From the NCBI GenBank assembly GCA_963971425.1, contig OZ020519.1:12602028-12666027 (forward strand): a DNA stretch of 64,000 nucleotides, written 5' to 3'. The position numbers were made by a program, and so were the translations under genes. The notes beneath the pieces were generated by a model, which saw only the letters and a list, made by a program, of their open reading frames with translations, did not search any database and was not told the origin of the DNA. Shown here one piece after another: positions 10,236 through 62,911 of the stretch (position 1 is its first letter; the number at the start of each line of letters is the position of its first letter). The stretch comes from Bryoerythrophyllum caledonicum. Lineage: Eukaryota > Streptophyta > Bryopsida > Pottiales > Pottiaceae.

Positions 10236-11051
10236 TTAACCCCTAAAGGACCGATGTCCCCTCGGGGGACGTTTTGAGTTTGGGTAAGGTACCACGTTCT
10301 CAATTCTAAGCATTATTTTCTGAGATTTTTTATTGAATGGCCAACTTTTGATTAGCTTTGCATAGACACAAATTTCGTAGAATTCCGACTTACGGTTCAA
10401 AAGTTACAATTTATTTTCACTTACATATACAAATAGTGCAGCAGTTTAGTGTGACATATCACAAATACTTTCACCAAACTTTAATAACTTCTAAATTCAA
10501 TAGAAATTCGAGTTTTTGTCCATTTAAAAGAAAGAAAATGTCCTCTTGGAAAAGAAATTGAGATCTTTTCATCTACCGTACGGATTTGTGAATTTCAAAT
10601 ATTTGAGAAGGATATGATATATGCAAAATATAAAGTGTATTGTTGATTCTCGGCACATAGGTGCATTCCAAGATTTTTTAGGACATCTTCTACACCTCTT
10701 CTACTTCTAAAATTTGGTGCACATGTGCCTTACATGATCCTTTTCAAGTTAACACAATAAAATCATGGCCCGTAGTGCAAAAATTTTCCATAGAAGGTGG
10801 TCGAAGTTTGTTGAAGGTGTATAGTATGACCCGAAAAAGAGATTATGTCGCACTTCAAAGGCTAATATCTTTCAATCCGTGCGGTCATACTTACCAAAAA
10901 TTTCACCACACACTCTCATACAAGTCTAGTACAAGATCCTACGGTTAAATTTTCAAAAAAATGATTTTGTATCATTTTGTGTCGAATGCGCTGAAAATGG
11001 CAGTTTTGGAGTGTTTTTGAGGAAAAATTGCCTTGGTCCTTTAAGGGTTAA
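10236..11051 (+). mobile_element. TTAA-bounded repeat, copy A (A-type, 816 bp)
   Basis: Begins TTAACCCCTAAAGGACC at 10236 and ends GGTCCTTTAAGGGTTAA at 11051, so the ends are inverted repeats bounded by TTAA. Just inside the left end lies the palindrome GTCCCCTCGGGGGAC (10256-10270). Internally it carries CCGTACGG and, near the right, the motif CTTTCAATCCGTGCGGTC shared by the other classes. No transposase is encoded. The A-type copies at 23361 and 23914 are in the opposite orientation. TTAA target plus CCC-starting termini is the piggyBac pattern; the link to an autonomous element is inferred. Confidence 0.8.
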
Positions 11052-11183
11052 ACCCGACAATTAAGACAAAATTGGTTTATTATTAAAATCCGTATACAGA
11101 CACAAACTATCCACTCAAGAATGATATGAAGTACTTGATTCATTAATTCTCAATCATAGATTTTTAAAAAACAGATCCAATCA

Positions 11184-11185
<2 letters not shown>

Positions 11186-11235
<50 letters not shown>
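11186..11235. repeat. (TA)n microsatellite
   Basis: About 48 bp of alternating T and A with one interruption near the 3' end. Confidence 0.95.
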
Positions 11236-11239
11236 AAAG

Positions 11240-12196
11240 ATTACGGTCTGGTAAAGCCGGGCCAATGGCCGTGGACTTGCCTATAATTGAAAGTTAAGTC
11301 ACTCAAGTTAAACTAAAATGTTGGATGAAATTGGTCACGCATTTAGAATCGTGGACCCACAGTCTTCCACACCGAAATTCGTAGACCCATGGCCGTCATT
11401 CCTCCTACAGTTAAGATTAATTTGCTTCATATTCTCAAAAGTGGTAGGCTGAGCGCCAATCGTTATGGGATATAGACCATGGTGATTTAGTGGAGGATGG
11501 CAGCACTTCTTGAACTACATATTTCAGCGGGATCAACTCCCTCATACGTCCCACAACCATTCTGGTAGCAGCCCTGTTATTGTAACAAAGCATGGATGCC
11601 CGTATGCAACTCTGGAGTTTCATGAGGCAAAACACTCCCAGCACCAAGATGGAGAGTTTCATGAGGCAAAATACTCCGAGCACCGAGATGGAGAGTTAGA
11701 GGATGGCTACACGATGAAGAGTTGACACTCCCTCGCACCATCACCATTTCAATGTGCTCTCTAACCATTTCGCAAATCAGATTTTTTTTTCCAAACTGTG
11801 GACTAAAAGCGTGTGAACTGTGTGCAGTTGAAAGCGCCGGAACTGCGTGCATTTGAGCAACCACATTCATAACGCGTCCCGGGAATGAGCAGCGGGTTTG
11901 AATGCATGCTGCATTGTGTGGTCGGAGCTCGATAGGTGATGAATTCTGGGTTGAAGACTTTGTGGAATAGGGTTTACAGTGATCATCATTATTTGAGAGT
12001 TTAGGGTTTTAGGGATTTAAACTAAATTTGTTGCTTTTGTGTGCAGATTTCACGATGTTGGAACTTGGTTGGGACTTTGTCACGTATTGACAAGTTTGCA
12101 GTCTTGAAATTTCAGAAATTTCTTGATGGATTTTTTGAGAGTAAGTTTTATCTCTATTGATGTTCATTGAGTTTAAACAATGTTGATTGCAATGTA
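11240..12196. other. Gap with a possible non-coding or 5' exon region
   Basis: No firm gene. A stretch near 12047-12139 is flanked by a CAG acceptor-like site and a GTAAGT donor-like site and reads in one frame SRIDKFAVLKFQKFLDGFFE. It may be an upstream exon of the plus-strand gene at 14079-15267, but its phase does not join that gene's first recognised exon directly. Confidence 0.3.
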
Positions 12197-13865
12197 CAGT
12201 GGTCAGCAGAAGTGTTCGGACAGGACGCTTCCACTTCCAATATGAGCTAGTTTTCTTACATAACTCACATTCAAGTTGTAAAAATTTAAACATACAATCA
12301 CATAGTTACAAAAAACATGTAACATAACATTCATAATAAAAAATGTCAATCAAGAAATCAATCAAAAATAAAACACATGATGTGGGTGTCCAATTCTTTA
12401 TGCAAAAAGTGAAGTGGTTATCTATTTACATTGAAAACAAAGCCATGAGCTACAAAATCAAGCTAAAAACTTGAATGTAGAATCATGAGGACTACCTAAA
12501 AACTTGAATGTACAATCATAATGACTACCATCGTGTATAGCCACCTTTTGCTTGATAAACATCTGCAGCTCTCTCAGGCATAGACATGATCAATTTCCTC
12601 ACGGTATCAATCTCAATGCTATACCAAATTTCTTGCAATTTCTCCCACAAATCCTTCTTGTTAGTGGGTTTCTTCTTTGACATTCTCATACGACGATCTA
12701 CTTCATTCCAAAGGTGTTCTATAGGATTCAAGTCAGGAGATTGAGCCGGATGCCAAATTAGTTGAAACTTCTGTGCTAACAACCAATCTGTAACATACTT
12801 AGAAGTATGTTTGGGATCGTTGTCGTGCTGAAAAATAACATTCTCCTCTCCTAAATCATACATGTGTATAGTATTCATGAGCTCCATCTCCAAAATTTCA
12901 CGATACACAAACTTATCCATGTTTCCTTCTATAAGACGAAGGTTGCCAATTCCCTCCCAAGTCATACATCCCCAAACCATAATGTTTCCACCTCCAAATT
13001 TGATAGTAGGTTGCACATGCTGATCTAAAAGATGCTCTCCTCTCTTCCTCCAACAATACTGCCTCCCATCTGAGCCAAACAAATTGAATTTTGACTCATC
13101 TTAAAAAACCACATAACTCCAGTCCATCCAACTTGCATGCCTACACTTCTTTGCCCATGCATATCGACGTGCTTTGTGTTTCTTTGACAAGAATGGCTTC
13201 TTAGTTTTCACTCGTGCTCTCAATCCTTGCCTCTGAAGACATCTTCTAATTGTATCATCACTCAAATCCAATCCTTGAGATCGCATTTCTCTACCCACTG
13301 CTGCAGCTGTACCATTAGATGGTGCATTCAACAACCTTACAACCTCACGATCACCACGTTCATCAAGAATTCGAGGTCTCCCTTGTGAAGGAGCATCTCT
13401 CAAATGACCTCTCATTGTAAACCTCCGCACAATAGCATGGCAAGTGCTTCGAGAGATGCCTAGAACCGCTGAATTTTCGGAGTACGAATTCCCTCTCTCA
13501 TGCATCTGAAGAACTAACTTACGTTCAGCAAGAGTCCTTCTAGGAGCCATAGCTAATCAAGAGCAATCTTATTCAATCACAATGTGTCTTGAAATGCAAG
13601 AGGTCTCCATAAATACATGTCGATTCTCAAGATTTTTCAGATGCACAACTTGTGTGCATAATGAATTGGACACCCATGATTGACACATCATGAACTGCAG
13701 CCCATGCAAGTGGCTCAATGTGAATGATGGTACTCTTTCTAGTTTACAAGTGGCTCTTTAGTTATAATTAGCTGAAAAAATCAACACCTACCTACCAAAC
13801 TCGACAAGTGTTACTATTAAATTGAGATTGTAATTACTGTCCGAACACTTCTGCTGACCACTGTA
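12195..13865 (-). mobile_element. Tc1-like DNA transposon 1 (1667 bp plus TA duplication)
   Basis: Perfect 27-bp terminal inverted repeats: 12197-12223, opening CAGTGGTCAGCAGAAGTG, and its exact reverse complement at 13837-13863. Both are flanked by TA (12195-12196 and 13864-13865), the Tc1/mariner target duplication. One transposase gene fills the minus strand. The identical TIRs suggest a young insertion, though the gene carries one nonsense codon. The insertion lies between possible exons of the plus-strand C2HC/coiled-coil gene, hence possibly in an intron or 5' UTR. The TIRs differ from those of the second Tc1 element at 47.4 kb, so the two are separate families. Confidence 0.95.
12525..13550 (-). 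pseudogene. Tc1 DD34E transposase with one nonsense codon
   Basis: Two minus-strand frames, 13550-13101 and 13100-12525, are in the same phase and separated only by a TAA at 13101-13103. Together they give about 341 residues, the normal Tc1 length. The N-terminus has paired helix-turn-helix segments (LVLQMHERGNSYSENSAVLGISRSTCHAIV) and the GRPR linker. The DDE core shows the first Asp in DESKFN right after the stop, FQHDNDPKHT, and SPDLNPIEHLW with 34 residues between the second Asp and the Glu. In relatives the residue before the first Asp is commonly Ser, so TCA to TAA is the likely single change. Everything else looks intact, so death is recent. Trans-mobilisation by a live relative remains possible. 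Confidence 0.93.
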
Positions 13866-16585: not shown

Positions 16586-16739
16586 ATAAGTTCATGTGAC
16601 GAGGAAAAGATGGGAACATGGATTGGAGCTTGGAAAGAAGGATGGGACACGAAAGAAAGAAAGTTGCTAAGTTGCTCTGTTGGGGACAATGGGTCAATAT
16701 ACTAGTATATATACATATAAACCAAGTTCAATATGCTTC

Positions 16740-18700: not shown

Positions 18701-21369
18701 ACATTAAAGGCCATTTTGATTTGGGACATGGACCGTGACAACCTTCATCCATGCAATGAGTGAGGTAAATCCTAGCTTTGGGGGATGTCTAGTCCTCACC
18801 CTTCAATTCCATCATCCTCACTTCAGATTAACTAGCAACTTCTTACTTTGCTTCACACCATAGGTTAATTCAAAGTGTCACTACCTTCATAAACACCTTA
18901 AGGATATTTTGATAATACATTACATTCACAAGGTCATCATCAAGAAGTGCCACATTATTCTCAAAAGAAGAATAATGTAAAGATTGAGAATGACCATGAC
19001 AAGTTAACTATTTAATGCATAATCGACCCTGATACGATCAATTTTTGCTATTTAACTTATAACTCTTTCTACAGCACTCCATTGTCTTTTGCTTCCTTTG
19101 AACATAGGACAAGCTTCTCAGTTGCTTTGTGGCCGATCATTCCACTCTTCAATCCCTACAAGCCTCAACAAACTATACCAATTTCCTTGAAACAAAGTTG
19201 TAGATTTTAGAAATGAAATGTATCCAATGCGTACATGATTTGATAGTCTAATCTACTACACTTGTAGATTATCTTGCATGTGCTGGTCCACTTAGGCATT
19301 AAAGGGTTAATAGGATCCAATGGAAACCATTTTCCATTCTTCACTGTGATACACCTCATATGCATTTGTCACTCCCTTCAAATATACCCCAAGAATGAAT
19401 AGAGAATATAGTTAGCTCCCTTTACTAAAGCATCTGATACAACAACAATCTCATCATAACAATCAGCTTGGTCCAAAACAAATCTTCTCTCATTACACGA
19501 GCATGTAATAACTTCTATGTCATTACCCACTCTTTCCATTATAACAACCACTCAATAAAGCAATCTTTATATATAGCAGACAAAACAAACATGGTTGTTG
19601 TAAAGAGAACTGCGGACTAAACATCTTGTGTAAAAGAGATGTTCAATTGATTCTTGAAGTCCATTCTTCACCTCCTAAGGTAAAGAATGATCATTCACAA
19701 ACTTCAAAAAAATAGGTTGCCATTTTTTTTGGATGGAAAAGTGCCACGTTACCCATTCTCCAAACATTGAGAATGAGCAAAAAGGGGTGTGATCGACCAC
19801 TCCCTATGGCACAACACTCCTCCATAAATCACCATCAAAGTCCAAATCACATGTGCTAGATGAGTTATTCACCAAAGCTCATATCCTCAAAAATGCTCAA
19901 CTTCGTATTGCAGCACCATGAACTGAAAATCTTCAAATCATCTGCAAGAAGCTTGAGGAATAGAGTAATAAACTCTCAAGAAAACTCACCGTTTCACAAC
20001 AATCTCGTCAAGCAGCTTCACATGCCGAAGAGTATCTGCCAATAACACATCGCCGCCTATCACACAACTGCGTACTTGTAGAATGTCAATGTCTCCGCGC
20101 TCCAACGATGAAGCATCTTTCGAAGAATAAACCTTTCAAAGAGATCATGCCGTGCCGAGTCCAACCAGATGCAAATCCAGTCACTTCAGCATGTAATCAG
20201 AAGACACAGCCATACGAAGGGTGCGCCACATGAAGAAGTGTACCTGTGAGACTTCGCACATACGACGTTCTCGAGTAGAGAGAAGTTGTTACTACGTCTG
20301 TGGGTTACCTTTCCTGAAGAAGCCAGGGATCAGCTTCCTAAAGAGCTTTCCAAAGGACTCCGTCGAGTCCGAGGGGTTCTCCTTTCGTTTCGCATCCTGT
20401 GGTAGTTAGAATTATCTTTTTTTTTCTTTGTATTGGTGACTTTTTGTGGTTAGATTTGGTGAGTTACCAATAGGTAGGATTCTGGTAGGTTAACTGACGG
20501 GTAGTAGCAGTTAGTTTCCCAATAGGTTAGAAACAGTGCAGTTAAGTGGTTGGTGGTAACCAACCAAACCAATCCGGTAGTATAAGTCAGGACAAAGTCG
20601 ATTGGAAAGACAGTCTCTTTGTGTGTAGTGCAGGAACTGCTCCTTCGACGGATTGGAAGTATTAGTTGAATGTTGGTAGTTTTCTTTGGTGACTGTGATG
20701 TGATGTGTGAGAGAGTACTATTGGAGAAATAAAATATGATTTTGGAAATCTGTGTGATTGGAGATTGATGTTGATGTGAGTAAGTTGTGAATGGAGATGA
20801 TCTGAACCCAATTGGAGACGAACCAGCATGGGTGCATGCCATGGCCTAGTTGCCAATTGGTGAATTGTACTGAATGTGATTACCGTACGCTACGGTCAGT
20901 TTCGGCAAGCAAGTGCCGAAGCAAATTTTCTTTTTTGTCACATTGATTTGACACATAGGTATTGCACGAGTATCACCTAGATCTTACACGGGTGTCACCT
21001 TGGTATTACATAGGTATTGCCTAGCCAAATCTCTTGAAATTTCCAAAATTTTGGACAAGTCACCATTTTGAATTAATTATGTACAAAACTGACCATAGCA
21101 TAGGGTAATACCCATGGGGATTTGAGTTATCCATTGGGAGAAGAGCTGATTGAGGGATAATCTAATTGGAGCATTATTAGACCTGCGTCTGAATTATAAA
21201 ATTATGAAAATAAATAAAAATGGTGTGTGAAGAGAATGTGATTGAGACTATTGGAGAATAGTAATAAAATACAGACTAATTGGAGAACTGTTGAGGGAGT
21301 GTCGTTGTAGACAGATTGAAGAAACCAATGAAGAAGCCATGTTGAGTGGTGTGAGATTATGCCGAGTGA
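18701..21369. other. Long gene-poor stretch
   Basis: No supported gene in about 2.7 kb. A TTAAAGGGTTAA-like string near 19299-19312 may be one end of a worn TTAA-type repeat. The minus-strand frame at 20450-20842 and plus-strand frames at 19860-20045 and 20221-20409 have no recognisable domains. Confidence 0.45.
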
Positions 21370-22306: not shown

Positions 22307-22847
22307 ATTTGACAGGAAACCCCCCACGCTCAGGCTTACCAGGTGGGGAGGAGGTGGTGGGGCCAAAACCTGGCCCCTATTTTGTTTTTGGATGGGGGCC
22401 TAAATTTAGCCGGGGGTCTCTTAAACTAAATTAGCGCCGTAGGCCCAGTTTGGTAAAAAAAAAGCCAAGAAAAGCCTCTGACCCCCCAAAATGGGACGGC
22501 TAGAAAAATGAGCCCATGCAATAAAGACAGGGCCCCACCTCGGGTAATTCCGAGCGTGGGGGGTTTCGTGTCCACGCCACAGGAAACCCCCCAAGCTCGG
22601 ACTTACCCGAGGTGGGTCCCGTCTTTACTGCATGGGCTCATTTTTCTTGGCCCCCCATTTTGGGAGGATCAGTGGCTTTTTTTTGGCTTTTTTTTTTTAC
22701 CAAACTTGGCCTACGGCCCCAATTTAGTTTAAAATACCCCTGGCTAAATTTAGGCCCCCATCCAAAAACAAAATAAGGGCCAGGTTTTGGCCCCACCACC
22801 TCCTCCTCCACCTGGTAAGTCCAAGCATGGGGGGTGTCCTGTCAAAT
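22307..22847. mobile_element. Fold-back pair of GC-rich MITEs
   Basis: Two copies of one about 265-bp element lie head to head: 22311-22572 and, inverted, 22578-22843, separated by a few bases. Outer ends read ATTTGACAGGAAACC and, on the other side, CCTGTCAAAT. Shared internal landmarks are GGTGGTGGGGCCAAAACC, TTTTGTTTTTGGATGGGG and GAGCCCATGCAATAAAGACA-like segments. The single copy at 61100-61364 has the same order, which defines the element. Transcription through this region would give a long hairpin. No TSD is evident and no protein is encoded; superfamily unknown. Confidence 0.85.
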
Positions 22848-22893
22848 TGCAATACAGTACCGTTCACCCTCTTTAACCCCCAACCCTTTAACG

Positions 22894-22915: not shown

Positions 22916-23360
22916 GAAAAATCCACATAGATTTGTCAACAAAAATATTAACAAAGTCTACATCGCGGATACATTCCACTATTGACTTTTTTCATGAAAA
23001 TCATTGTAGTCTCCTAAATGCCTTAACCGATGGAAGATTGGGAAGATGGGTTAGATGCAGGAAACCGAAGCGCATCACTGCTCCAACAAGTGAAAATTGA
23101 TTGAACGGTTGGATCAACCGTAGTCTTCCAAAATTGACTCAATTGACCACTTTATGGTCGCTTTGTCCTTAAACACTGGAGCAACCAATTTCTGGCTACG
23201 CGGATGACATTTGTGGATGATCAGTGACGTAAATGGGCGATCGGCATCCAATTTCTTTGTAGAGAATTAATTGAATGTATAAGCATTGGATGATGATGAA
23301 ACTTGCCTCATTGAGGTAATCATGTTTTATCCAAGAAAGAAAATGTTTGTGATTCGGATC

Positions 23361-25006
23361 TTAACCCTGAAACGCCCAAGGCAATTTCCCCTCTAAAACA
23401 CTCCAAAATTGCCATTTGCAATGCATTCAACACAAAATGATACAAAATGTTTTTTTAAAGAACCTAACCGTAGGATCTTGTACTAAAGCCGTATAAGAGT
23501 GTGTGGTGAAAATTTAGGTACGTTTGATGGCACGGATTGAAAGTTATCAACCTTTGAAGTGAGGCATGAACTCTTTTGGAGGTGATAACAAACTTTAACA
23601 AACTTCGACCACCTTCTATGGCAAATTTTTGCACTACATGGAGTGATTTTATTTTTTTAAGTTGAAAAGGATCATGTTAGGCACATGTGCACCAAATTAT
23701 AGAAGTAGAAGAGGGGTAGAAGATGTCCTTTAAAATCTTGCAATGCAACTATGTCTTGAGTTTCAACAATACACATTAAATTTTGCATACATCATATCCT
23801 TCTCATATTTTTGAAATTCAAAACTCCCTATGGTAGATGCAAAGATATCTATTTCCTTTCCAAGAAGATTTTTTTTTCTTGTAAATAGACAAAAATTCGA
23901 GTTTTTTTTTAATTTAACCCCTAAAGGACCAAGGCAATTTTCCCTCAAAATCACTCCAAAACAGCCATTTTCAGCGCATTCAACACAAAATGATATAGAA
24001 TGTTTTTTCTGAAAACTTAACCGTAGGATCTTGAACTAGATTTGTGTAAGAGTGTGTGGTGAAAATTTTGGTAAGTTTGACCGCACAGATGAAAGATCTT
24101 AGCCTTTGAAGTAAGATATAAACTCTTTTTGAGGTCATACTAAACACCTTCAACAAACTTCGACCACCTTCTATGGAAAATTTTTGCACTAAGGGCCGTG
24201 AATTTATTGTCTAAACTTGAAAAGGATCATGCTAGGCACATGTACAAGAAATTTTAGAAGTAGAAGAGGTGTAGAAGATGTCCTAAAAAATCCTGCAATG
24301 CAACTGTGTGCTAGGAATCAACAATACACGTTATATTTTGCATATACCATATCCTTCTCAAAATTTTGAAATTCAAAAATCCGTACGGTAGATGCAAAGA
24401 TCTCAATTTTGTTTCCAAGAGGAAATTTTCTTTCTTTTAAATGGACATATACTTGATTTTTTATTGAATTTAGAAGTTATTAAAGTTTAGCAACAATATT
24501 TGTGATATGTCACACCAAATTGCTGCACTATTTGCATATGGAAGTGAAAATAAATTGTTACTTTTGAACTGTAAGTCAAAATTCTACAAAATTCTACAAA
24601 ATTCTACAAAATTCTACGCGAAGCTAATAAAAAGTTGTTCATTCAATAAACAATCTCAGAAAATAATGCCTAGAATTGAGAACGTGGTACCTTACCCAAA
24701 CTCAAAATGTCCCCCGAGGGGACTTTGGTCCTCTCGGGGTTAATATTTATTGAAGTTTTGCGACAATATTTGTAATATGTCACACTAGATCGATGCACTA
24801 TTTGCATATGTTAGTGAAAAAAGCTTGTATCTTTTGTAGCTTGTAACGTAGGTCGGATTTCTACAAAACTTATGTCTATGCGAAGCTAATAAAAAGTTGC
24901 CCATTCGATAAATAATCTCATAAAATAAAGCCTAGAATTGAGAACGTGGTACCCTACCCAAACTCAAAATGTCCCCCGAGGGGACTCTTGGGCATTTAGG
25001 GGTTAA
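23361..25006 (-). mobile_element. TTAA-bounded repeat B (A-type), nested in D1
   Basis: Runs from TTAACCCTGAAACGCCC (23361) to CATTTAGGGGTTAA (25006), opposite in orientation to copy A. After removing the inner C copy it is about 820 bp, matching copy A (816 bp). It keeps the subterminal palindrome GTCCCCCGAGGGGAC (24971-24985). The flanking TTAA on both sides continues into D1 sequence, so TTAA is the duplicated target. Confidence 0.9.
23914..24743 (-). mobile_element. TTAA-bounded repeat C (A-type), nested in B
   Basis: Innermost element: TTAACCCCTAAAGGACC at 23914 to CTCTCGGGGTTAA at 24743 (830 bp). It carries its own hairpin GTCCCCCGAGGGGAC (24709-24723) and CCGTACGG. The B sequence resumes immediately after (TTAATATTTATTGAAGTTTT), with TTAA present on both sides. 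No coding capacity. Confidence 0.92.
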
Positions 25007-25522
25007 CATAGTGGATTTGAGAAACTTCTAACTTTAGCTCTAAATCTGAATTTGTACTATTAAATTAATAAATTAAAAAGTTGAATCCAACAAGTAAAAT
25101 GAAGTTTATAGAGTCTAGTTTCCATTCCAATTTGAAATTCTGAAAAACACGTAAAATTGAATAAGTTATCGCAACTTTAAATTTGGACCTATAACCGACT
25201 TTCTACTTTCAGCTGAATGCGGAAATTTCATTTACACCACAAGTATTGGCACTATGATGTGCTCCTCTGATGAAATTTTCAGAATTTTTATGCACAATTT
25301 GTAACTAATATGAATTTTCTTCACATCTTCTTCAAAAATCACAATGGTTTCAAATTTTCACAAAAGAATCTGAGATTTTTGTGACACAATCAGAACATGC
25401 AATTGCATCTCCAAAAAATGAAAAGAAGAATTTTACTTGTATTGATTGAAAAATTTAGAGCACATAGTTGAATGGAAATTGGGATTATTCCACGGTCATA
25501 GGCTCCAACGTTTAAGGACTAA

Positions 25523-27340
25523 TCCCTAAACATTAGAATGTGCCGCTAGTGGCCACCTACAACGTATGCCGAGCTAAACATTGTATGGCGGGACCATAGG
25601 CTAGATTCAGTGAAAATTTTGACTTCAGTGTGGGTATCGAAGGCATCATAGTGGAATAGAAGCCATATCGGGGGTACCAAAGGCTATGGAAGGCCATAAT
25701 GGCCACTTCACTGCTCCATCAAAATAGCATGTAGATGCTCAATTGGCAAGTCCACCCAAGCTAATCACGGAAAACTTTTGCCACCATTCCAATTTTGAAT
25801 TGAAGTGATTGATTGAAGCCTATGTCAGGTTGTATGTTTGGCATCAATATGTAGATACAATTCCTGACTGACATTTAAGGGTTAAATGTAAATGGTTGGG
25901 AGCGGGCCAAAAACATAATACTTATCGAATCGTAACACATTACGAAAATAACACTCATAACATTTGGAAAAAAATCAATAACACATATTGAAAATAATAT
26001 TTATAAAGCTTGAAAAAGAAATTTATAACATTTATGAAAATCAAGTTTATAATACTTAAAAGATAAATGTAACGCATCAAAGATCACATTTTTAAGACTT
26101 CAAACATAGATTTAGAATTCTTATAATACTTAAAAAATAAATGTATGACACATATCAAAGATCACATTTCTAAGATTTCAAAGTTCATAGATCTAGAACT
26201 TTTATCAAAGTAAATAACGAAACTTCAATAATATATCAATATAAAATCAACTAAGCTGATTTAGAATAAGAATTTATTGGTGGTTTGCCGAGATTCTTTC
26301 ACACCAATTGCAAACTTTCTTGTAAAGATATCAAACATACTTCACATCTGAAAGACCGTTCTCTCCGCTTGCTCCCTAACCAGCGATTGTGACTCAATCC
26401 CCAACCCCCTCACTTCTCCATGAACCCCTTTAACCAACGTCCCTTAAACCGACTGATCCCTCCCAGCAACTGATCCATGCCATCAATCACTCCCCCCACA
26501 CTCTGCGATACTCTAATGGACTGCCATTTTCCTCTGACCGACTACCACTCACAAATTCTCTCCCAAATCTTTCTGTCCCACGAGTATAGTGATCTAGGTC
26601 AGCAACCACTTAAATGCTACATTATAATTTCGGATTTGGGGTTTATATCTCACCCTCTCTTTCCACTTATGATGACAGCTTACACTGTAATCAAAGAAAT
26701 ATCTGGGTTTTATAATAACTCAAAAGTGCCAACTGCCACTACAAGAACAATTCCAAGAAGATCTCAGAACTTGGAAAAGAACAATTCAACATAGGAAACC
26801 CAGATAGTAAGTGCGTTGGAACTCATGGTCACAAAATTCCCGTATGTAGATCATACTGTCCATCTCACCCTCTTTCATAAAAGGTGAAAGCTCACACTGT
26901 CATCAAAGAAATATCTGGTTGCCAAAATAACTCGAAAGTGCCGACTGCCACCACAACGCAATTGCAAGAATGACCTCCGAAATCAGAAAGAGAACAAATA
27001 AACAGACAAAACCCAAACCTAACAACCACTTCAATATCGTTCCAGCGCACTTACAGAAGCAGAATTCCACCAGACAAAAAAACAAGATTCTTGAGGAACG
27101 TAACCGCCTACAATCTCTACCTTACACGATAACAATTTCCCAAAGACCCTGCTCCGCATCCGCAAAACCATCTGCCATCAACACATCGGTAACATCACAC
27201 ACTTCACTACAACCAATGAAATCCAAAAACCAACTTGATGAGTGCATCTAAAACAACCCGTAGTTACGCCATGGTAACGAGTCGTGGTGCAGTTCCCCAT
27301 TCCGCATAAGGCTATTTAGTACCTGGAACCGCACAAAGTA
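25523..27340. other. Gap with repeat ends and AT-rich direct repeats
   Basis: ACATTTAAGGGTTAA at 25871-25885 is a right end of the TTAA group without a recognised left end. From 25930 to 26240 there are short direct repeats of the form AATAACAC...CATAACATTT, similar to those in the pogo-like remnant at 8.7-8.9 kb. Between 26.5 and 27.3 kb two similar segments (near 26680-26760 and 26890-26960, sharing ATCAAAGAAATATCTGG and AGTGCCGACTGCCAC-like strings) look like an old local duplication. No gene is supported. Confidence 0.5.
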
Positions 27341-29686: not shown

Positions 29687-30345
29687 TTAAGCATCTAAGC
29701 CCAAATAATGGGAGGGGTTTGAAGATGTGAGTAACCAAAACTTCTCATTCTCTTTCATATCTTGAAAATCGAAGACAATGACTAGGCCTTTGGAGCGATC
29801 GTATGTCCAGTGTGAAAAAGCGTGGAGGGTAGCGGCATACCCCTCTGTATTCACATAGTTCAAATTGTTGGTGTATCTGATCCAATTTCCCTGCAAGTAC
29901 CTCTCCATCTCGTAATATTTGCCCCACTCCTTGAACCAACTTCCACTGTAGTCACCAATGTGAACTCCACAAGCTTGTAGTCTCCGGTGTAGCTTCCTTT
30001 GTAGGATAAAAACAACATATGAGAACTTCATGGGGAATATGACAGGTGGTAAAATTTCATGTAGATTACTTGGCCGTTTGTCTAAGCTATCCAGTACTTG
30101 ACGATAATATATGACGTAATCTTGTAACATCATTACTGCAACATCCTTTACATAAATAGCAGCCACATGTGGACAGTACAGTACCTGGCAAGCTCCGAGT
30201 TGAATTTCTCTACCATATATGCTGCCAATGTCTGTACCTCCATTTGCTCAAAATAGGCTTTCTGGTGCATGCACCTTGTTCACATCTTGCCCCAGAGGCT
30301 TCTTGAATCTTTTCACCACCATCCTGCATGAAATAGTACATGATG
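29687..30345 (-). CDS. Alpha-type protein kinase-like gene (partial, perhaps broken)
   Basis: The 3' ORF (30166-29687) has the alpha-kinase C-lobe signature: MERYLQGNWIRYTNN, GYAATLHAFSHWTYDRS and GLVIVFDFQ, matching the family form E-Y-G-F-KYN...AFSH-TY...LVV-DLQG. An upstream exon (about 30345-30185, donor GTACTG) carries the N-lobe: MVVKRFKKPLGQ and YFEQMEVQTLAAYMVEKFN, as in other alpha-kinases. Alpha-kinases are Ser/Thr kinases unrelated in sequence to ordinary kinases. The usual D-Q-G after the strand reads FDFQD, and the C-terminal zinc-binding part is weak. The two N-lobe pieces are in different frames with no credible intron between them, so the copy may be inactivated. An unseen 5' exon is likely. 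Confidence 0.7.
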
Positions 30346-30626: not shown

Positions 30627-30988
30627 TTAACCCTTAAACGTCAGAGCCAGCCCAAGGGGCTTAGTTTCTACAAAATCTTCTCTGTAGCTCTTCCTGTACT
30701 CAACTTTTCACTTATTTTTTTATATCATTCTAATCACCTTCTTTTGATGCATTCACGAAGTGAAATTTTACAATTCAAATCACAATTTGTATGAGTGATT
30801 TGTGCTTTGAAAGGATTGTGGTAGGTAGGTTGATAACCTTGTAGGAGGTTGCAAGCTCATCATTGATTGGTTTATTCATGATGCCCAAGTTCAAAAAGTG
30901 CACTATTCATTGATGTCCAAGTACAGAAGATGCCGTGATCCAATTTCGGGCTGCCCGCCCAGGCCATGAATTGTCGTTTAAGGGTTAA
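30627..30988 (+). mobile_element. TTAA-bounded short repeat F (362 bp)
   Basis: Ends TTAACCCTTAAACGTCA (30627) and TTGTCGTTTAAGGGTTAA (30988) are near-perfect inverted repeats bounded by TTAA. Too short to encode anything. Third size class of the TTAA group. Confidence 0.85.
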
Positions 30989-41733: not shown

Positions 41734-42691
41734 TTAACCCCTAAAGAACCAAGTGTCCAAAACGGGCTTTTTGAAAAATCAGTCAGGTTCCTATGGTGTC
41801 AATTTTCAACATTCCACTTTGAAATTTTTACTATAGAAAGACATTACCAAGAGCTCAGTGGGAAAACAATTTTTTCCTAAATTGGACATTTGATGAAAAA
41901 GTTATAGGGTTTTGAATTTTAAATGGGGAGGGCGGACACCTCGGGCACCTCCAAAAACTTTTGATAGGACACTCTAGACTATTGAAAGTGAGATTTTCAT
42001 TACTCGCAAGTAATATTATTTCCCTTCATGTTGTCAAAAAAAAGTTCTTGTCTTTAGTGAAAAGTAGCATACCAACCCAAGTCAAACATTTTCACACATT
42101 GTCACTCATTGTCGGGCAAGGTACCAAAAAAACTTCTTCTTTTCCACATAAAACCTAGAGATCTTCATATTTTTCACTTTTTATTATTTCCACAACAGTA
42201 TGTAATGTAAACCTTCTTATTAACCATTCGGATTATCAATCAAAAACATATTAAGTTCAAAAAAAATTAAAGTGTGAATTAACAAATTTTGAGCCTCCAC
42301 TCCTTGCACACTTGTTTTGAATATGCTACACCCAGTCTCTACCTCTAAAAATTGGTGTGTGAGGAGCTAACATCATGCTTAACAAGATGGTAATAGATTT
42401 AGACCTTGTGTAGTGAAATTTTTTGACACCAACAGAAGTCAAAGTCTCCTGATCCACTAAACGCAGGGAAGAAAATGAACCATTTGCTTGCCTTCAAACA
42501 CTATAATCTTTCAATCCGTGCGGTCAAAAATTATGAAATTTTGAACATGTATTACTTGATAAGCCTTTATTGAGATCCTACAGTCAGAACTAAAAATAAA
42601 AGTTTTTGTTACCTTCTATATCCATTGCACTAGAATCCAACAATTTTGAAGTGTTTTTGGTGTAAAACTGTCTTGGTACCTTAGGGGTTAA
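41734..42691 (+). mobile_element. TTAA-bounded repeat G2 (G-type, 958 bp)
   Basis: From TTAACCCCTAAAGAACC to TTGGTACCTTAGGGGTTAA, same orientation as G1 and nearly identical to it over its whole length, apart from small indels such as near 41976. It has the CTTTCAATCCGTGCGGTC core. The short plus-strand frame at 41961-42158 is inside it and is not a gene. Confidence 0.92.
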
Positions 42692-46405: not shown

Positions 46406-47246
46406 TTTATACCGTCGATTTGTAGTGTGGTACATGACAAACCATGGAATAAAAGGGTTGAAGAGTGCATGGTGTGTGACTAAACCACAAGGATTGACTT
46501 CTAATAGGGATAGTGTGGTAAGAGACATATTGAGGCTACGAGTGGTTGATGTAAGCCTGCCTAGAGCGAGGGTGTTGTCAAGCAATATGATGCAAGTGGT
46601 GCACAAGCTTGAGGTGTTGGTTTTGGATTCATGCCCCAACTTGAGAGAGCTGAACCTTGAGGAGATGGTGAGTCTACGGATTTTGATTATCCATAAATTG
46701 GAGAACTTGGAGAGTGTGACTTTGGGTGGGAGTCATGGCACAAGGGAGAGTGGAGGCATTTTGGATGTGTTGGAAATAGTGGAGTTGAAGTATTTGGGAT
46801 CGCTTGTGTATGGTCCGGACATGAGGCGTTGTACGTCGTTGTATAGGTATACAGCAGCTAAGTGCCCAAGCATGACAAACATGGACGGAATGGAGTGCCC
46901 TCACTTGAGGGAATTGAATCTTGAATGGTTGGCTGGGCACCAAATGGGAAGGCTACCAAATGTGAGTGTGCTTCATTCGTTAGAGTGGTTTCATGTTACT
47001 GTGATGTGCGGCAATCTTTTGAGTGATGTGGAGGCATCAAGAGGAATTGAGTTAAGGAATCTTGGGAAGCCATATTGGAGAGTAGTTGAGCAGGTTATCA
47101 TGTATCTTCGCATGGAATGGGTTGAGAGTGTTTCGCCTGGAATGTTTGGAGTTCAGTGGAAGCACAGACCCATGTATGGTGGCCAAATGGAGGAGTTGTG
47201 TGTTGTTATAGATTCTAGTGGAGTAGAGTACAGATGGAGTACTTAA
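46311..47246 (+). CDS. TIR-NB-LRR immune receptor, MHD and LRR part
   Basis: Reads LMHDLYRRFVVWYMT, the conserved MHD motif at the end of NB-ARC, then a degenerate LRR region with LEVLVLDSCPNLRELNL, MVSLRILIIHKLENLESVTL, LEIVELKYLGSLVYGP and LRELNLEWLAGHQMG. Only about five repeats are visible, few for this class. This frame differs from the upstream NB frame, with about 90 bp of overlap and no convincing intron. Either a small intron I have missed or a frameshift near 46340-46390 separates them; if a frameshift, the gene is inactive. The 3' end is at a TAA at 47244-47246. The 3' flank is duplicated at 52.1-52.4 kb. Confidence 0.8.
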   Translation: MLQLQDLERSGMITLDWELFQIFGIMQILMHDLYRRFVVWYMTNHGIKGLKSAWCVTKPQGLTSNRDSVVRDILRLRVVDVSLPRARVLSSNMMQVVHKLEVLVLDSCPNLRELNLEEMVSLRILIIHKLENLESVTLGGSHGTRESGGILDVLEIVELKYLGSLVYGPDMRRCTSLYRYTAAKCPSMTNMDGMECPHLRELNLEWLAGHQMGRLPNVSVLHSLEWFHVTVMCGNLLSDVEASRGIELRNLGKPYWRVVEQVIMYLRMEWVESVSPGMFGVQWKHRPMYGGQMEELCVVIDSSGVEYRWST

Positions 47247-47386
47247 GATTGTAGTGGAAGAGAATACACAATTGACAATTTGTAGGGATTGTGATTGACA
47301 TACATTCTAGGGAATGTGTAGTGGTAGAGAGCCTATTCCATTGTGTTTCATCACTTTAGATTATTGAAAGTATGAGACCACTTACA

Positions 47387-48974
47387 TACAGTGACAAACA
47401 AAACCGAGTACAAAATCTGAAAGTGCAACTTTCAAGATCAGTTACAAAAATTTCAATGATTGCTTTATAAATCTGAAAGTTGCATGGAACAATACACACA
47501 GTCTTGTACACATGTGCAAAGTTGCACATCAAATTGATAACTAAACATCCTTCTACAAAGTCAAAGCAACAACTCTATCTCGTACTCAGTATTGTTCAAA
47601 GAAAATCTTCAAACTTCAATATTTAGTCCAATAACCTTTTGCTTCCAAAACGGCTGAAATCCTTCTTGGCATACTATTGTATAGTTTCTCACAATCTTCT
47701 GCATCAAAACTAGGGTAAATACTACAAACATTCTCCCACAATTCTTGAACTCCTCTTGGCCTTGGAGTGACTTGGCTTAAACGCTGTTTGAGAAGGGCCC
47801 AGAAATGTTCCATTGGATTCAAATCTGGAGATTGAGCTGGCCAATCAAGGAGCTGAAATGGCTGTGAAGAGAGCCAAAACTGAACACTTTTTGCCGTATG
47901 TTTGGGATCATTATCATGTTGAAAAACCACCTTACTAGGATCTAAGTTGTAATTTTGTATGGTACTTTGCAAGTAGGTTTCTAAATTTTTTTTGTACAAG
48001 TGTTGCTCCATTCTACCTTCAATTTGATACCAAGCACCCGGCCCAAAAGCAGTCATACAACCCCAAATCATGATTGAACCACCACCATGCTTGACAGTTT
48101 GACTAACATGTTTAGGTCCAGGTCGTTCTCCTTCTCTCAACCAACACCAAGATCTACCATCTGAGTTGATTAGGTTCACCTTTGTCTCATCACTGAAAAT
48201 AACCCGTCTCCAATCATCAACGGTCCAATTCTTGTATTTATGAGCAAAACTCAACCTTGCAAGAACATGTCTTCTGGCAAGTAGAGGCTTCTTTTGTTGC
48301 ACACAAGCACCCAAACCAGCTTCTCTCAAAGCACGCCTCAAGGTGATGTCGGAGAAGTGTTTACCTATTTTTTCTCGAAGTTGTTTTGCAGCTGCACTTG
48401 CCGTTTTGAGACTACCAGCAGTGACAAGGTGCACACCAAGCCGCTTCTCTTGCTCTCCTAAAACCTTTGGACGTCCTCCTCTTTGCTTTTCTATTTCACC
48501 ACTAATCTCCCTCCTCAGATGAGCTACTGAAGACTGACTCATTCCAAGTGAGTCAGCAACTTTTCTTGTAGAAACACCACTCCTAAGTTGCACCAATGCT
48601 TGGTGCTTCAATGATTCACACAACCGAGGCATAGAGATACAATTGACAAATCAACTCTCACTACAGATAGTACACAACAAGAGCAACACAAAAAAAAAAA
48701 AACGCCCTCAAATCTTGCAACAAGGAATGCACAATGGAATTTCGAAATTCAGCAAGAAGAAGCAACCAAAACTGAGTACGCACGTCTGTGTGCTTATACA
48801 GCACTTTCCTCAGAAACTACACGTCAAATGATAATGAGATTTTTCATCCATATAGAGGACTGGATGAATACACATAATGGAAAAGTAATTATATCAATTG
48901 ACTTACGTGTCAGTTGGAAGGATCAATGAACTTTGAGTGTTCAGATTTTGTACTCGGTTTTGTTTGTCACTGTA
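47387..48974 (-). mobile_element. Tc1-like DNA transposon 2, apparently intact (1584 bp plus TA duplication)
   Basis: Perfect 33-bp TIRs at 47389-47421 (CAGTGACAAACAAAACCG...) and 48940-48972, flanked by TA at 47387-47388 and 48973-48974. One full-length transposase gene occupies the minus strand. The related locus at 52381-52412 has the same flanks with a single TATA-like CATAT and no element: collapsing one TA from the filled site gives a 32-bp sequence differing from the empty one at three positions. That fixes the exact boundary and target. With identical TIRs and an open transposase it could still be active. Confidence 0.97.
47616..48632 (-). CDS. Tc1 DD34E transposase, full length, 338 aa
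   Basis: Starts MPRLCESLKHQALVQL; a helix-turn-helix (GVSTRKVADSLGMSQSSV) is followed by the RGGRPK linker. A second helical part runs to LRRALREAGLGA. The catalytic core shows FSDETKVN (first Asp), FQHDNDPKHT (second Asp) and SPDLNPMEHFW (Glu), with 34 residues between the second and third, hence DD34E. KHGGGSIMIWGCM and the closing VLEAKGYWTKY are typical. Length equals the usual 340. No stops or frameshifts. It cuts and pastes its own DNA at TA sites. Typical plant mariner-like transposases are DD39D, so this clade is unusual in a plant. The ATG at 48630-48632 is the first in frame. Confidence 0.97.
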   Translation of the reverse strand: MPRLCESLKHQALVQLRSGVSTRKVADSLGMSQSSVAHLRREISGEIEKQRGGRPKVLGEQEKRLGVHLVTAGSLKTASAAAKQLREKIGKHFSDITLRRALREAGLGACVQQKKPLLARRHVLARLSFAHKYKNWTVDDWRRVIFSDETKVNLINSDGRSWCWLREGERPGPKHVSQTVKHGGGSIMIWGCMTAFGPGAWYQIEGRMEQHLYKKNLETYLQSTIQNYNLDPSKVVFQHDNDPKHTAKSVQFWLSSQPFQLLDWPAQSPDLNPMEHFWALLKQRLSQVTPRPRGVQELWENVCSIYPSFDAEDCEKLYNSMPRRISAVLEAKGYWTKY

Positions 48975-48992
48975 TGTAGACCCTTCAATCTT

Positions 48993-49300
48993 TTAACCCT
49001 TGAGAGCTTAAGGCAATTTTTCCTCATCAAGAACTCCAAATTTGCCACATCCAAAAAGTGGGAAGAAAATCTAATTTTGAAGTAAATTTTTGGAATAGTC
49101 ATTGGAAGATCTTGAAATAGAATTCTATGTAAGCCCATCATATGTTTTGAGTTGTAATTAACGACATGGATTGAAAAGATTATAATGTTTGAAGTCAAGA
49201 AAATGGGTATGTTTTCTTCTGTGCTTTGAGTGGATCAATAGACTTTGACTTCACTTGGTATCAAACTTAAGGGTCCTATCAAGAAGATTGGCGTGTATAT
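48993..49300 (-). repeat. TTAA-type repeat H1, partial
   Basis: Starts TTAACCCTTGAGAGCTTAAGGC at 48993 and continues AATTTTTCCTCATC..., GATTGAAAAGATTATAATG, GACTTTGACTTCACTTGG. These align with the G-type right half in reverse orientation and with H2 at 52410, with which it shares its flank because of the receptor duplication. It is truncated at about 49300. Confidence 0.65.
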
Positions 49301-51482: not shown

Positions 51483-52390
51483 GATCTAGACCACACAAAA
51501 TGTTTGGAATGTGGTGTTGAATTCTTTGGGGCAATGCCAAGCTTATGTCCGACAGAAGCAGAAGACTCTGTTTTTGAGAAGTGCTGCACCATCCATGTCA
51601 TCTTTGGGCTGACTAATGTTTTTGAGAAGTATTCACTGCTAAGGAGTTACGATTTCTTGGGCGGTATATTCAAGGGTGCTTGTATAAAGATCCGGGACGA
51701 GTTAGGGATGTAATTGGTGGTGGAGGAGATGCAATAATTAGGCTTCTATCTGAGTTCTCTCGTGGCACAACGAAGAGTGGGGGGTATTTTAGGTGCATTA
51801 GAAATAGTGGTGTTGAAGAAGCTAAAATACCTAGTGTATGTTCCGAACATGAGGCGGTGCTCGTCGTTGTAGAGATATTGTGTAAGGGAGTGTCCAAGCA
51901 TGACAAACACGGACATAATACATCGATCTTACTTAAGACTTTTGGAGTTGTCCAGGTTGGTTAAGCACCAATTGGCAAGTCTACCAAATATAAGTGCGCT
52001 ACATTTATTAGATAGTTATTTTGTTAATTTGTGTTGCGGTGTTCTTTTGAGTGATGTGGAGGCGTCAAGAGGAATCCGGTTAAAGGATCTTGGGAAGCCA
52101 TATTAGAGGGTGGTCGAGAAGGTTAATATGTATGTGCACACGGAATGGGTAGAGAGTGATTTATTTGGTGGGTTTAAATTTTAATGGTCTTACGCATCTA
52201 AATTTATTCACATCTTTGGACTCAGTAAGAAGGAAACATGCATTGTCAAAGTGTCTAGTGGAGGATATTATTAATGTCGTAACCCAACAATATTGATGGA
52301 CGTACGTACTATTCAAGGTGTAGTGGCAAAGGGCCTATTCCATTGAGTTTTCATCACGCTTTATTATTGAAAGTAAGTGACCACTTGCAT
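51483..52390 (+). pseudogene. Internally deleted copy of the TIR-NB-LRR gene
   Basis: Left part 51483-51755 matches 45570-45830 of the receptor gene (shared ATGCCAAGCTT, ACGGAAGCAG/ACAGAAGCAG, TTCTTGGGCGG, GGCTTCTATCTGAGT). At about 51755 the match jumps to 46735 (GGCACAA.GA.AGTGG, GAGTTGAAG/GTGTTGAAG), an internal deletion of roughly 900 bp in this copy. It then continues through SNPSMT-type LRR sequence (46860-47090) to the 3' flank, with stops in the former frame. It lacks the TIR, P-loop and MHD. It lacks the Tc1 insertion seen in the intact copy, so the duplication predates that insertion, or this copy simply escaped it. Confidence 0.88.
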
Positions 52391-52409
52391 ATTTAGAACC
52401 TTCAATCTT

Positions 52410-53300
52410 TTAATGCATAAGAGCCCAAGGCAGTTTGTCCCAAAAGCCTTGCAAATGGTACCACAACCAAAAAGTGGCAAGAAAATCTAATTTTGAAGGA
52501 AACTGCTAGAATTCCTAACTATAAGATCATAAGACAGAGATTTATAATGATTCACCATACTTTTGGAATCCACCGCAGGGCTTGAAAAGAATTTAGTGTG
52601 TGAAGTCAAAAATGTGGTTTATTTTCTTTTGAGCATTGAGTTGATCAACTGGCTTTGACTTCATTGTGTATCAAATGTTTGCACTATTCAAGGATTATAT
52701 CTTTCACCATTGCCTTTGCCATGATTTTAGGTCCTTGTGTATGAATTTTTAGAGGAAGAGTGAGGCGTAGCATATTTAAAGCAATTGTGCGAGAAGTAAA
52801 GGCTGAGAAATTGCCATTTCACAATTTGTTTTTAGTAATCTTGGTATGTAATAGAATCATAAGCTAAACAATGAACAAGAAAGTTCTCAACACATATTGT
52901 TGTCAACAAAACAAAATATGAAGACCTTATGTAGAAAAGATAAAGTATTTTCTCTTAGTTGCCTAGCATTTGTTTAAATGTTTGACTCGTGTTGGAATGT
53001 ATTTTTTGCACTACAGACAAGAAATGTTTTTTGACGTCTTCAAAGAAGCCTGCATTATTCTTTATATGTACAAAACATCCCATTGACAACATAAATTATT
53101 ACCAAAAATGTTGGAGCTACCCAAAGTCCCCTTATTTACTACGATGGGTAGCCACTTTCAAGCCATAAAATAAAATATCATACCTTCATAGAGCTCTTAT
53201 CACTCACAATCTAAAACAATCATTTTTTAATGATTATTTTCTTTGGAGTCCTAAGAACTTGCCCAACAACAACTCTGCCCCCTAGGGTCCCATCTGTGGA
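52410..53300 (-). mobile_element. TTAA-type repeat H2 (G-like, reverse orientation), worn
   Basis: Begins TTAATGCATAAGAGCCC and aligns in order with the reverse of G1: GACTTTGACTTC..., ATTGTTGTCAACAAAACAAAATATGAAGACC, AATGTTTGACTCGTGTTGG, ACAGACAAGAAATG...TTTTTTGAC. It fades near 53270-53300 (CCCCCTAGGGTCC). More diverged than G1/G2, hence older. Confidence 0.7.
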
Positions 53301-53795
53301 ACATGAGTACTTTACCTAATGAATGTGTTTAAATTTTTATTTCCATCAAAAGATGCAAACAAAATTTCTAATTTATAGCACCCATATTACAGGTGGGAGG
53401 TTTGTCCTCCATCAGAACGCACATATTCAATTTGAACTTTGCTTTAGACCTTAGAGGTATCTTGAAAGTCGAGTCTTTCTAGAGTGGGAAGCCTCGGTCA
53501 AAAGAGAGGGTGCAACAGGTTTCCAAGAGCATGTGTCTTTTTCTGAATACAAACTCAGTATGAAACGCCACTATGTTATAGAAACTCAGTATGAAACGCC
53601 ACTATGAAACACTCACTATGAAAGGCTACAGTTGAAACGCCTGCAACTCGTACCTGGAAGGATCTTGTTGATCTCTCTCCGCTACGCCGAGCCGAACGTG
53701 AAGTTGCAAAACGTTGCGGAGGGTGAAGTTCGTTTGGTCTAAGGTGCATGTTAAACCTTAATAAAAAATAATTGGTTTAGGGTTAGAGCACATTG
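53300..53795. other. Gap with a short tandem duplication
   Basis: GAAACTCAGTATGAAACGCC occurs twice around 53550-53600 and a third, shorter form follows. No gene is seen. Confidence 0.6.
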
Positions 53796-60612: not shown

Positions 60613-61099
60613 CCCTGCCTCCTTGCTCGCCTCCTCTCATCTCATCTCCCCTCATCTCCTCTTCTTTCAATCAATCTATCAAACTCCAACAAGCTGCTCT
60701 CCTCCTCCGGCTTCGGGGCATGTCGATGTCGTCGACTCCACCTACTCCTCCGCCATCGCTGCTCTCCTCTCTATCTCTCTCTCTAATGACCTCTCTAGTG
60801 AGCTCTTGCTTTCATTGCCTGTGTCGATCAACTCCGGGAAGACGACCCAAACGCGTCACTGATCTTCTGGTTCCTAGAGTTCTCTCATTGAATGTACTCC
60901 GTGCCAGGTTTGGGTGTTTGTCCTCTTTTGCTAGGGTGACGGGTTTAAGGTTGGTGGCGGGTTTAATGTGGGTGACGAGTTTGGGTTGTGGTGGGAAAGG
61001 GGGCGTTGTCCTACGGACAGGCACACCGTGAAGCTTTTCTTTGTTGCGCTTTCATTTCTAGTTTAACTTCGTCTACAAGACCAAGGCATTGTACAATTT
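60613..61099. other. GC-richer 5' region of the LCB1 fragment
   Basis: Pyrimidine-rich (CTCCT/TCTC) upstream region with overlapping frames on both strands; none matches a known protein. Likely promoter/5' UTR sequence of the LCB1-like gene. Confidence 0.4.
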
Positions 61100-61364
61100 G
61101 ACAGGATATCCCCACGCTCAAACTTACTGTGTGGAGCCACAAGGTGGTGGGGCCAAACTCGGCCCCTATTTTGTTTTTGGATGGGTCCCTATTTATGGCA
61201 AAGGAGGGACCTCGTAGGTTAACAATAGCCATGGGCCCCAAATTTATCCAAAAAATTCCAAAAAAAGCCTCTGGAACCCCCAAAATAAGAGGGCCAGAAA
61301 TGTGACTCCATGCAATTAAGATGGGGCCCACCTTAGGTAAGTCCGAGCGTGGGGATATCCTGTC
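61100..61364 (+). mobile_element. GC-rich MITE, single copy (265 bp)
   Basis: Inverted ends GACAGGATATCCCCACGCTC (from 61100) and its near-complement ending 61364 (GAGCGTGGGGATATCCTGTC). Internally GGTGGTGGGGCCAAACTC and TTTTGTTTTTGGATGGG match both arms of the fold-back at 22307-22847. No obvious target duplication. Superfamily unknown. Confidence 0.85.
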
Positions 61365-61599
61365 CGCGCCAGCATTGTAGAGGAGTCTCTCTACTTTGTT
61401 GATTACTAGCACATTGCCCGTTGTTCCCAACTCGCTAACCTAGTGCCCTTAGTTTAATCCCTATCTGATGATCATCCATCCATGTGACCAACCCCTAAAA
61501 GTTGATTCCAACCTGTCAACCTCATACCAGTGCTTTGGGGTGCCCATTTCTACGGCTTTGGGGTGCGCATCTCTACATTATAATAAAGATAAATTGCCG

Positions 61600-61752
61600 A
61601 GATGAGCTTTGAGAGAATCTAATTGTAGGATTTTCTTTCTAAACAAATATGAGATTATGTAATAAAAATTCTCTGATTTTTTACCGTACGGATTGAAAGA
61701 AAATTGCATTCAAAGTGAAAACTTTTGTTAACTTGGTCCTTTAGGGGTTATG
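61600..61752 (+). repeat. Right-end fragment of a TTAA-type repeat
   Basis: Contains CCGTACGG and ends CTTGGTCCTTTAGGGGTTA, the right terminus of A/G-type copies. The last TTAA reads TTAT. Left part missing. Confidence 0.7.
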
Positions 61753-61981
61753 GATGCAAAGGAGCCTGCAGTGGAACAGTTGGATAAACCCACACCCATG
61801 TATGATGTTGATAACTGAAGGTGGACACGCATATTTTGGTCCAACAAGCAGTTTTTTTGAGGGTGGGTGCTTGTTTTTCTAGCTCTCTTTTCTTGGAGGG
61901 TCTAGAGGCTTTTATGGCACATTGTATGCTAAATTTGGTATTTGAGGCTCCACATTGTCTCAGGAAGTTCACCTTTGTGAG

Positions 61982-62911
61982 TTAACTCCTATAGGACCAA
62001 AGTCTCCTTCGGGGGGATTTTTGATTTTGTGCAGGTTCCTAAATTTAAAAAAAAAATCCTTTTTCTCTGAAATTTTTATTCTAGATTGCCTCTGATAAGA
62101 GCTTCGTGGGCATATTTTTATTTTATTTTTTGGATTTGTGGTTTGAAAGTTAGTACCACTTAAAGCCAAACGTAGGGACACCGCGCACCTCCAAAATTTT
62201 TGACAAAAGTTTCTATTGACATTGAGATTTTTCACACATATAAATAATATTTCCTTTTCTGGAAATTTTCAAAAAAAAATCTTGTCTTTAGTGTAAAAAG
62301 GCATTTTATTCCAAGTCAATCATTTTCACACATTGTCGGGCAACGGGGGAAAAAAACTTCATCTTTTCTACACAAAACCTAGAGATCTTCATATTTTTCA
62401 CTTTTTATTTTTTCAACAAAAATATGTGGTGAAACCATCTTATCGACCGTTTGGTTTATCATTTGAATACATACGTAGTTCACAAAAAATAAAACGTGAA
62501 ATGGCAATTTTTGAACCTCCACTCCTTGCACACTTGTTTTGAATATGCTACACTCCTTTTTTACCTCTAAAAATTGGTGTTTCAGGAAATAACATCATGC
62601 TTAAGACAGTGGTAAAAGATTTAGACCTTGTACAATGCAAAAATTTGATACAAAGTGAAGTCAAAGTCTGCTGATCTACTCATCACAAGGAAGAAAATGA
62701 ACCATTGATTTGACTTTAAACACTAAAATCTATCAATCCGTGCGGTGGATTGCAACCAAAATTTTATGGCACGTTTGTATAGAACTCTTTTTAAGATCTT
62801 ACGGTTGAAAATCCAAAATTCACTTTAAAATGGGATTTTCATGTCTCTTTTTGGTAGTGGCAATTTGGACTGGTTTTAGAGTGAAAGTGGTCGTGGTCCT
62901 TTGGGGGTTAA
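61982..62911 (+). mobile_element. TTAA-bounded repeat G3 (G-type, 930 bp), diverged
   Basis: From TTAACTCCTATAGGACC to TGGTCCTTTGGGGGTTAA. Collinear with G1 (TCACACATTGTCGGGCAA, ACACAAAACCTAGAGATC, TCAATCCGTGCGGT) but with many differences, so older. No ORF. Confidence 0.88.

Follow-up and report, generated by a model that had tools for sequence, protein, structure and literature searches.

Non-autonomous elements with TTAA borders and piggyBac-like ends in a 64-kb window of Bryoerythrophyllum caledonicum

The piggyBac superfamily of transposons is best known from animals. Its elements generally have inverted repeats of 12-19 bp, begin with CC(C/T)T and duplicate a TTAA target upon insertion (PMC2872659). 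The described systems nearest to the elements reported here come from corals, a moth and a bat. In this work we analyzed a 64,000-nucleotide stretch of the genome of Bryoerythrophyllum caledonicum (assembly GCA_963971425.1, contig OZ020519.1, positions 12,602,028 to 12,666,027; hereafter "the window"), in which TTAA-bordered repeats without a transposase gene are abundant. We conclude that these repeats very probably belong to the piggyBac superfamily, as non-autonomous cut-and-paste elements that are moved by a transposase whose gene lies elsewhere.

Three described systems offer the nearest comparisons. The coral (Acropora) CMITE families and AmiPB1-AmiPB6 share with the window elements a TTAA duplication, repeats of 12-19 bp and the presence of piggyBac-linked non-autonomous copies, and one CMITE family starts with CCCC, as do 9 of 23 ends here; CMITEs, however, are described as about 100 bp long with a shared conserved middle (PMC2872659), whereas the window elements are about 350-960 bp long, reside in a plant and have no autonomous partner in view. 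The Trichoplusia ni (T. ni) piggyBac resembles them in its TTAA target and resembles some of them in its CCCT ends and in a left palindrome centered at bp 25, but it is autonomous, encodes a 594-aa transposase and has the same palindrome further inside the right end as well (PMC7351741). Finally, the bat element piggyBat has a palindrome near the left tip and none on the right end, a likeness to several of the window elements; unlike them it has three left-end repeats and its own transposase (PMC11707139), and the right ends of our A and G elements contain weak A/T-rich dyads.

Element copies and lineages

By self-BLAST, alignment and inspection of ends, we found 12 element copies in the window, which bears out the preliminary description of many TTAA-bordered copies. 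All ten of the start positions listed there begin with TTAA and nine are element borders; the tenth, 23169, lies inside an element end, the element itself starting at 23166 after TTTG. The coordinates below, counted from the first base of the window, generally take in the flanking TTAA or the equivalent 4 bp.

10236-11051 (element 10240-11047), + strand: A1; TTAA on both sides; inverted repeats 12/14; left dyad GTCCCC(TCG)GGGGAC at bp 17-31
23914-24743, - strand: A2; inserted in B at a TTAA; 87.8% identity to A1; inverted repeats 12/14
23361-25006, - strand: B; split by A2; inserted in D3 at a TTAA; inverted repeats 11/14
23162-25522 (pieces 23166-23360 and 25007-25518), + strand: D3, diverged; split by B; flanks TTTG and TTAG
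30627-30988, + strand: F; single copy in the window; TTAA on both sides; inverted repeats 12/14; left dyad AGCCC(AAG)GGGCT
31098-32051, + strand: G1; TTAA on both sides; inverted repeats 12/14; dyad CCAAATTTGG at bp 20-29
41734-42691, + strand: G2; TTAA on both sides; likeness to G1 stops at the TTAA borders; inverted repeats 12/14
61982-62911, + strand: G3; TTAA on both sides; about 70% identity to G1
52410-53312, - strand: G4, diverged; right end TTAA, left flank AAGT
48993-49265, - strand: G5, truncated; right part; apparently one insertion with G4, duplicated afterwards
40723-41453, + strand: D1; TTAA on both sides; inverted repeats 9/14; dyad AAAGCC(AGAAATC)GGCTTT at bp 16-34
39648-40388, - strand: D2, diverged; left TTAA, right TCAA; left end starts GGG
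61608-61751, - strand: fragment with an A-type end; flank ATAA; 61608-61717 matches A1
19004-19310, strand (.): H, tentative small element of 299 bp, present once; flanked by TTAA left and right; inverted repeats 11/14; dyad absent at bp 24-26
25519-25885, strand (.): I, weak candidate of 359 bp; CTAA and TTAA flanks; inverted repeats 9/14; may be chance

The elements cover 9173 bases, or 14.3% of the window; this mask includes the fragment at 61608-61751 and excludes the tentative H and I. Unpaired ends at 22873 and 56705 have no convincing partners in the window. The copies fall into three lineages, A/B/G, D and F. A1, A2 and B, each about 815-830 bp, are 80-88% identical to one another. Over 959 aligned positions G1 is 94.6% identical to G2; G3 has about 70% identity to either of them, and the divergence of G4 and G5 is greater. 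The similarity of D3 to D1 and D2 is 66-70%; D1 and D2 gave no direct BLAST match to each other and were aligned by MAFFT only. We place A and G in one lineage because the last ~370 bp of their elements match at 62-63% and because G3 is, in addition, similar to the left end of A1. Motifs such as CAATCCGTGCGGTCA and AGATCCTACGGT are common to the right parts of A1 (10240-11047) and G1 (31102-32047) and are perhaps further protein sites. A single family for all elements was ruled out, as at a cut-off of E 1e-6 neither D nor F matches A/G at the DNA level.

The likeness between G4 and G5 runs over the element border (48973-49265 with 52390-52675). Because it does so, these two copies look like one insertion that was copied together with its flank, and we therefore count 11 insertion events. 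Since identities within lineages span from 95% down to 60-70%, the sequences suggest that the elements moved in several waves.

TTAA target site and nested insertions

TTAA adjoins 19 of 23 readable ends and is present on both sides of 8 of the 11 two-ended copies; this count of ends omits the ATAA-flanked fragment, the tentative H and I and the two unpaired ends. The flanks that depart from TTAA are all in diverged copies: TCAA in D2, TTTG and TTAG in D3 and AAGT in G4. TTAG and TCAA are also among the target variants given for a few published piggyBac elements (PMC10813416).

The strongest evidence on the target site is the nest at 23162-25522, where A2 lies within B and B within D3. When A2 is removed and one TTAA is kept, B aligns to A1 and A2 with no gap at the junction. 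When B is removed in the same way, D3 aligns to D1 and D2, again with no gap at this point. Both empty sites are thus restored with a single TTAA, and insertion therefore duplicates 4 bp, TTAA. A possible third empty site beside D1, in a repeat shared with sequences at 16.4 kb and 63.3 kb, was uninformative, as the similarity stops at the insertion. We also considered PIF/Harbinger elements (Tourist miniature inverted-repeat transposable elements [MITEs]), which make a 3-bp TAA or TTA duplication, and rejected them: four bases are accounted for at both empty sites, and a 3-bp reading would also spoil the symmetry of the inverted repeats.

The association between TTAA and the element ends is also seen without reference to individual copies. 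TTAACCC occurs 20 times in the window, compared to simulated means of 7.8, 4.9 and 6.4 (Markov orders 1, 3 and 4; 30 simulations each) and a simulated maximum of 14. In a second comparison, we looked for two TTAA words, 100-3000 bp from each other, with inverted repeats in the adjoining 14 bases (at least 12 matching positions). Seven such pairs are found in the window, against a mean of 0.05 in 20 order-2 simulations and one pair for each of the control words AATT, TATA and ATAT. Five of the seven are elements (A1, A2, G1, G2 and F), one joins the ends of two nested elements and one falls in an unrelated foldback.

Element ends, the left-end dyad and the class of transposase

Inverted repeats were scored in A1, A2, B, G1, G2, D1 and F, leaving aside G3, D2, D3 and G4. 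They match at 12 of 14 positions in A1, A2, G1, G2 and F, at 11 in B and at 9 in D1. The first four bases of the 23 ends are CCCC in nine, CCCT in seven, TCCT in three and other sequences in four. Because these first bases helped to pick the elements, bp 5-13 were compared alone with published ends (from PMC2872659, PMC7351741 and PMC6004289). Against eight published piggyBac ends, the 23 ends have a mean best match of 5.8, compared to 3.9 (SD 0.21) for shuffled sequences, with 0 of 2000 shuffles scoring as high. Each lineage shows the same likeness: shuffles reached the observed value in 0 of 2000 trials for A/B/G (15 ends), 9 of 2000 for D (6 ends) and 13 of 2000 for F (2 ends). The closest published element is AmiPB2, whose ends match those of A1 and B at up to 11 of 13 positions; when it is left out, still none of 2000 shuffles scores as high. 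A smaller comparison, with 12 of the 23 ends plus the tentative H, gave a mean of 6.2 and the same verdict.

A second signal lies further inside the left ends. Perfect dyad arms of 6, 5, 6 and 5 bp are centered at bp 24, 24.5, 25 and 25 in A1, G1, D1 and F, respectively, so that all three lineages have a dyad at this place. Arms of 5-6 bp are present in 7 of 11 left ends (A1, A2, B, G1, D1, D2 and F), and the 12 right ends have arms of 1-4 bp at centers 24-26. For one element per lineage (A1, D1 and F), with either end allowed, the combined p is 0.0019 when window sequence serves as the background and 0.0004 when shuffles do. The letters of the palindrome vary between lineages, and its place is kept. 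Between G1 (31098-32051) and G2 (41734-42691), three adjacent bases differ in the middle of the left palindrome. The left-end palindromic repeat of T. ni piggyBac occupies bp 17-33, with its center at 25, and is bound by a dimer of the transposase C-terminal domain; in its published letters we measure a 5-bp arm centered at 25.0 (PMC7351741). In piggyBat, each palindrome is described as starting 3 bp past a motif, the first motif lies at bp 11-16, and the right end is without a palindrome (PMC11707139); extrapolating from the third palindrome places the first near bp 19-32.

Based on these features, we propose how the elements may move. They would carry only the DNA signals needed by a transposase, namely inverted repeats of ~14 bp, most of which start with CCC, together with an imperfect palindrome centered ~25 bp inside the left end in several families. 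A piggyBac-type transposase, whose gene would lie elsewhere in the genome, would recognize the inverted repeats through its core and the left-end palindrome through a dimer of its C-terminal domain. After excision by this enzyme, the element would be inserted at a TTAA, which would then stand on either side of it. The elements, the duplication of 4 bp, the resemblance of the ends to piggyBac and the left-end dyad of three lineages are observed in the sequence, and from these we infer such a transposase in this genome, its class, its binding to the dyad and any activity that the elements may have at present.

Several observations weigh against the piggyBac assignment. The strict CC(C/T)T motif is found in only 7 of 23 ends, with CCCC in nine, and the left end of D2 starts with GG. 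Ends within a lineage are related, such that the value of 0 of 2000 overstates their independence. The dyad is also uneven: left-end arms at centers 24-26 are just 2-3 bp in G2, G3 and D3 and 4 bp in G4, and those of the tentative H and I are 2-3 bp. It is not cleanly one-sided, given that A/T-rich 5-bp arms with centers at 27-27.5 occur in the right ends of A1, A2, G1 and G2, and its position was noticed in the window sequences before the comparison with piggyBac was made. At the two empty sites, the uninterrupted relatives have CTAA and TCAA rather than TTAA, and the sites are therefore matched in length, not letter for letter. Lastly, none of the window scans found a transposase of any class that uses TTAA. 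In a Pfam scan of 249 stop-to-stop frames of at least 58 aa, in which shorter or decayed fragments could be missed, the piggyBac domain DDE_Tnp_1_7 was not among the best 25 of 33 and the best 25 of 31 families at E up to 0.1. These frames omitted the satellite at 4300-5500 and four gene regions that other scans partly covered. The earlier statement that the window has no transposase thus holds for the piggyBac class within the frames scanned.

With no transposase gene seen, the class of the elements rests on their ends, and this leaves room for another TTAA-targeting superfamily or an undescribed transposase. Sola3, for example, prefers TTAA. We consider this improbable, as the ends of all three lineages fit published piggyBac ends and several left ends have their dyad at the docking place of piggyBac-type transposases. 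More improbable still is that the elements are non-autonomous members of the Kolobok superfamily, like the Xenopus T2-MITEs. The Kolobok transposase also uses TTAA, which makes the earlier view of TTAA plus CCC as a piggyBac hallmark too strong, and Kolobok elements make TTAA duplications and are present in chlorophytes and rhodophytes (PMC9587614). Their termini, however, are given as 5'-RR and YY-3' in the same source, and here 20 of 23 ends start with two pyrimidines, two are mixed and a single one, the left end of D2, starts with two purines (GG). Moreover, at bp 5-13 the likeness of the 23 ends to 12 published Kolobok ends does not exceed that of shuffles (4.0 against 4.3, with 1774 of 2000 shuffles as high). 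The least credible alternative is Tc1/mariner (Stowaway-like) elements with a TA duplication and ends ACCC...GGGT that happen to sit in TTAA: from the letters alone, empty sites included, these are indistinguishable from a TTAA duplication with CCC ends, and Tc1-type transposase genes are present in the window, but a TA target does not predict a fixed outer T and A such as we see at 19 of 23 ends, most copies came from similarity rather than from searching for the word TTAA, and the intact Tc1-type element of the window has unrelated ends, CATACAGTGACAAAC. The preliminary proposal of piggyBac-type non-autonomous elements is supported by the TTAA duplication, the end sequences and, in several left ends, a dyad where one is expected.

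Neighboring features and relation to known plant elements

The window also contains other mobile sequences. A complete-looking Tc1-type element at 47383-48978 is flanked by TA and has the same 37 bases at each end; its 338-aa frame runs from ATG without interruption and shows DD34E spacing. It lies inside one copy of a duplicated stretch, which it divides into 46733-47388 and 48973-49265 (the other copy is at 51760-52675). A second Tc1-type transposase gene at 12528-13556 is in one frame interrupted by a stop codon. A foldback element at 22307-22849 has 117-bp arms that are 94% complementary, and both of its halves match 61094-61371 at 72-75%. An array at 4415-5384 consists of ~80 copies of a 12-bp unit and is open in several frames on both strands. 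No Rfam match at gathering score and no tRNA was found in the window. The exact end pattern had no match in the viral_contigs and genome_contigs collections, nor did an internal 21-mer in viral_contigs; these collections do not consist of plant genomes.

Genes in the window agree with the plant host that had been predicted from the sequence. A TIR domain has its best solved matches in flax L6, RPP1 and other plant resistance proteins; a few presumably bacterial proteins are among its weaker matches. The kinase at 35770-37257 best matches two proteins, presumably the Arabidopsis MLKLs, followed by B-Raf. An alpha-kinase domain at 29690-30247 (E 5.5e-14) would not be expected in a seed plant and may help to place the host.

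The preliminary description regarded the elements as a previously undescribed system, a claim that we do not uphold. PiggyBac is among seven named angiosperm MITE superfamilies (PMC10004981), to which the window elements can be compared by name rather than by sequence. It is also listed in a C-fern repeat table with 1230 entries (PMC6890710) and among the superfamilies present in all groups of a transposable element survey (PMC4438587). Because PiggyBac is already named in these three sources, this kind of element is known. Its abundance in a plant nevertheless seems under-recorded in the open-licence literature: the main text of a MITE survey of 207 plant genomes contains neither "piggy" nor "TTAA" (PMC12550479). 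A moss paper (PMC10619864) was discarded as a piggyBac report, its matches being to the word "piggybacking".

These results led us to speculate about the place of such elements in plant genomes. It is conceivable, although we would put it at slightly less than an even chance, that the window samples a large and long-lived population of piggyBac passengers in a plant lineage, here about one-seventh of the sequence, driven by the lineage's own piggyBac transposase with a palindrome-binding C-terminal domain, and that in some plants such passengers amount to one of the main MITE superfamilies, one without a category in current plant surveys. The left-end palindrome varies naturally among the families: A and G1, which belong to one lineage via G3, have different palindrome letters at about the same place, and the docking model is therefore testable. 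Work on plant MITEs assigns elements to a few superfamilies; should 14% of a plant window be of piggyBac type, pipelines of this sort may assign such elements wrongly or overlook them.

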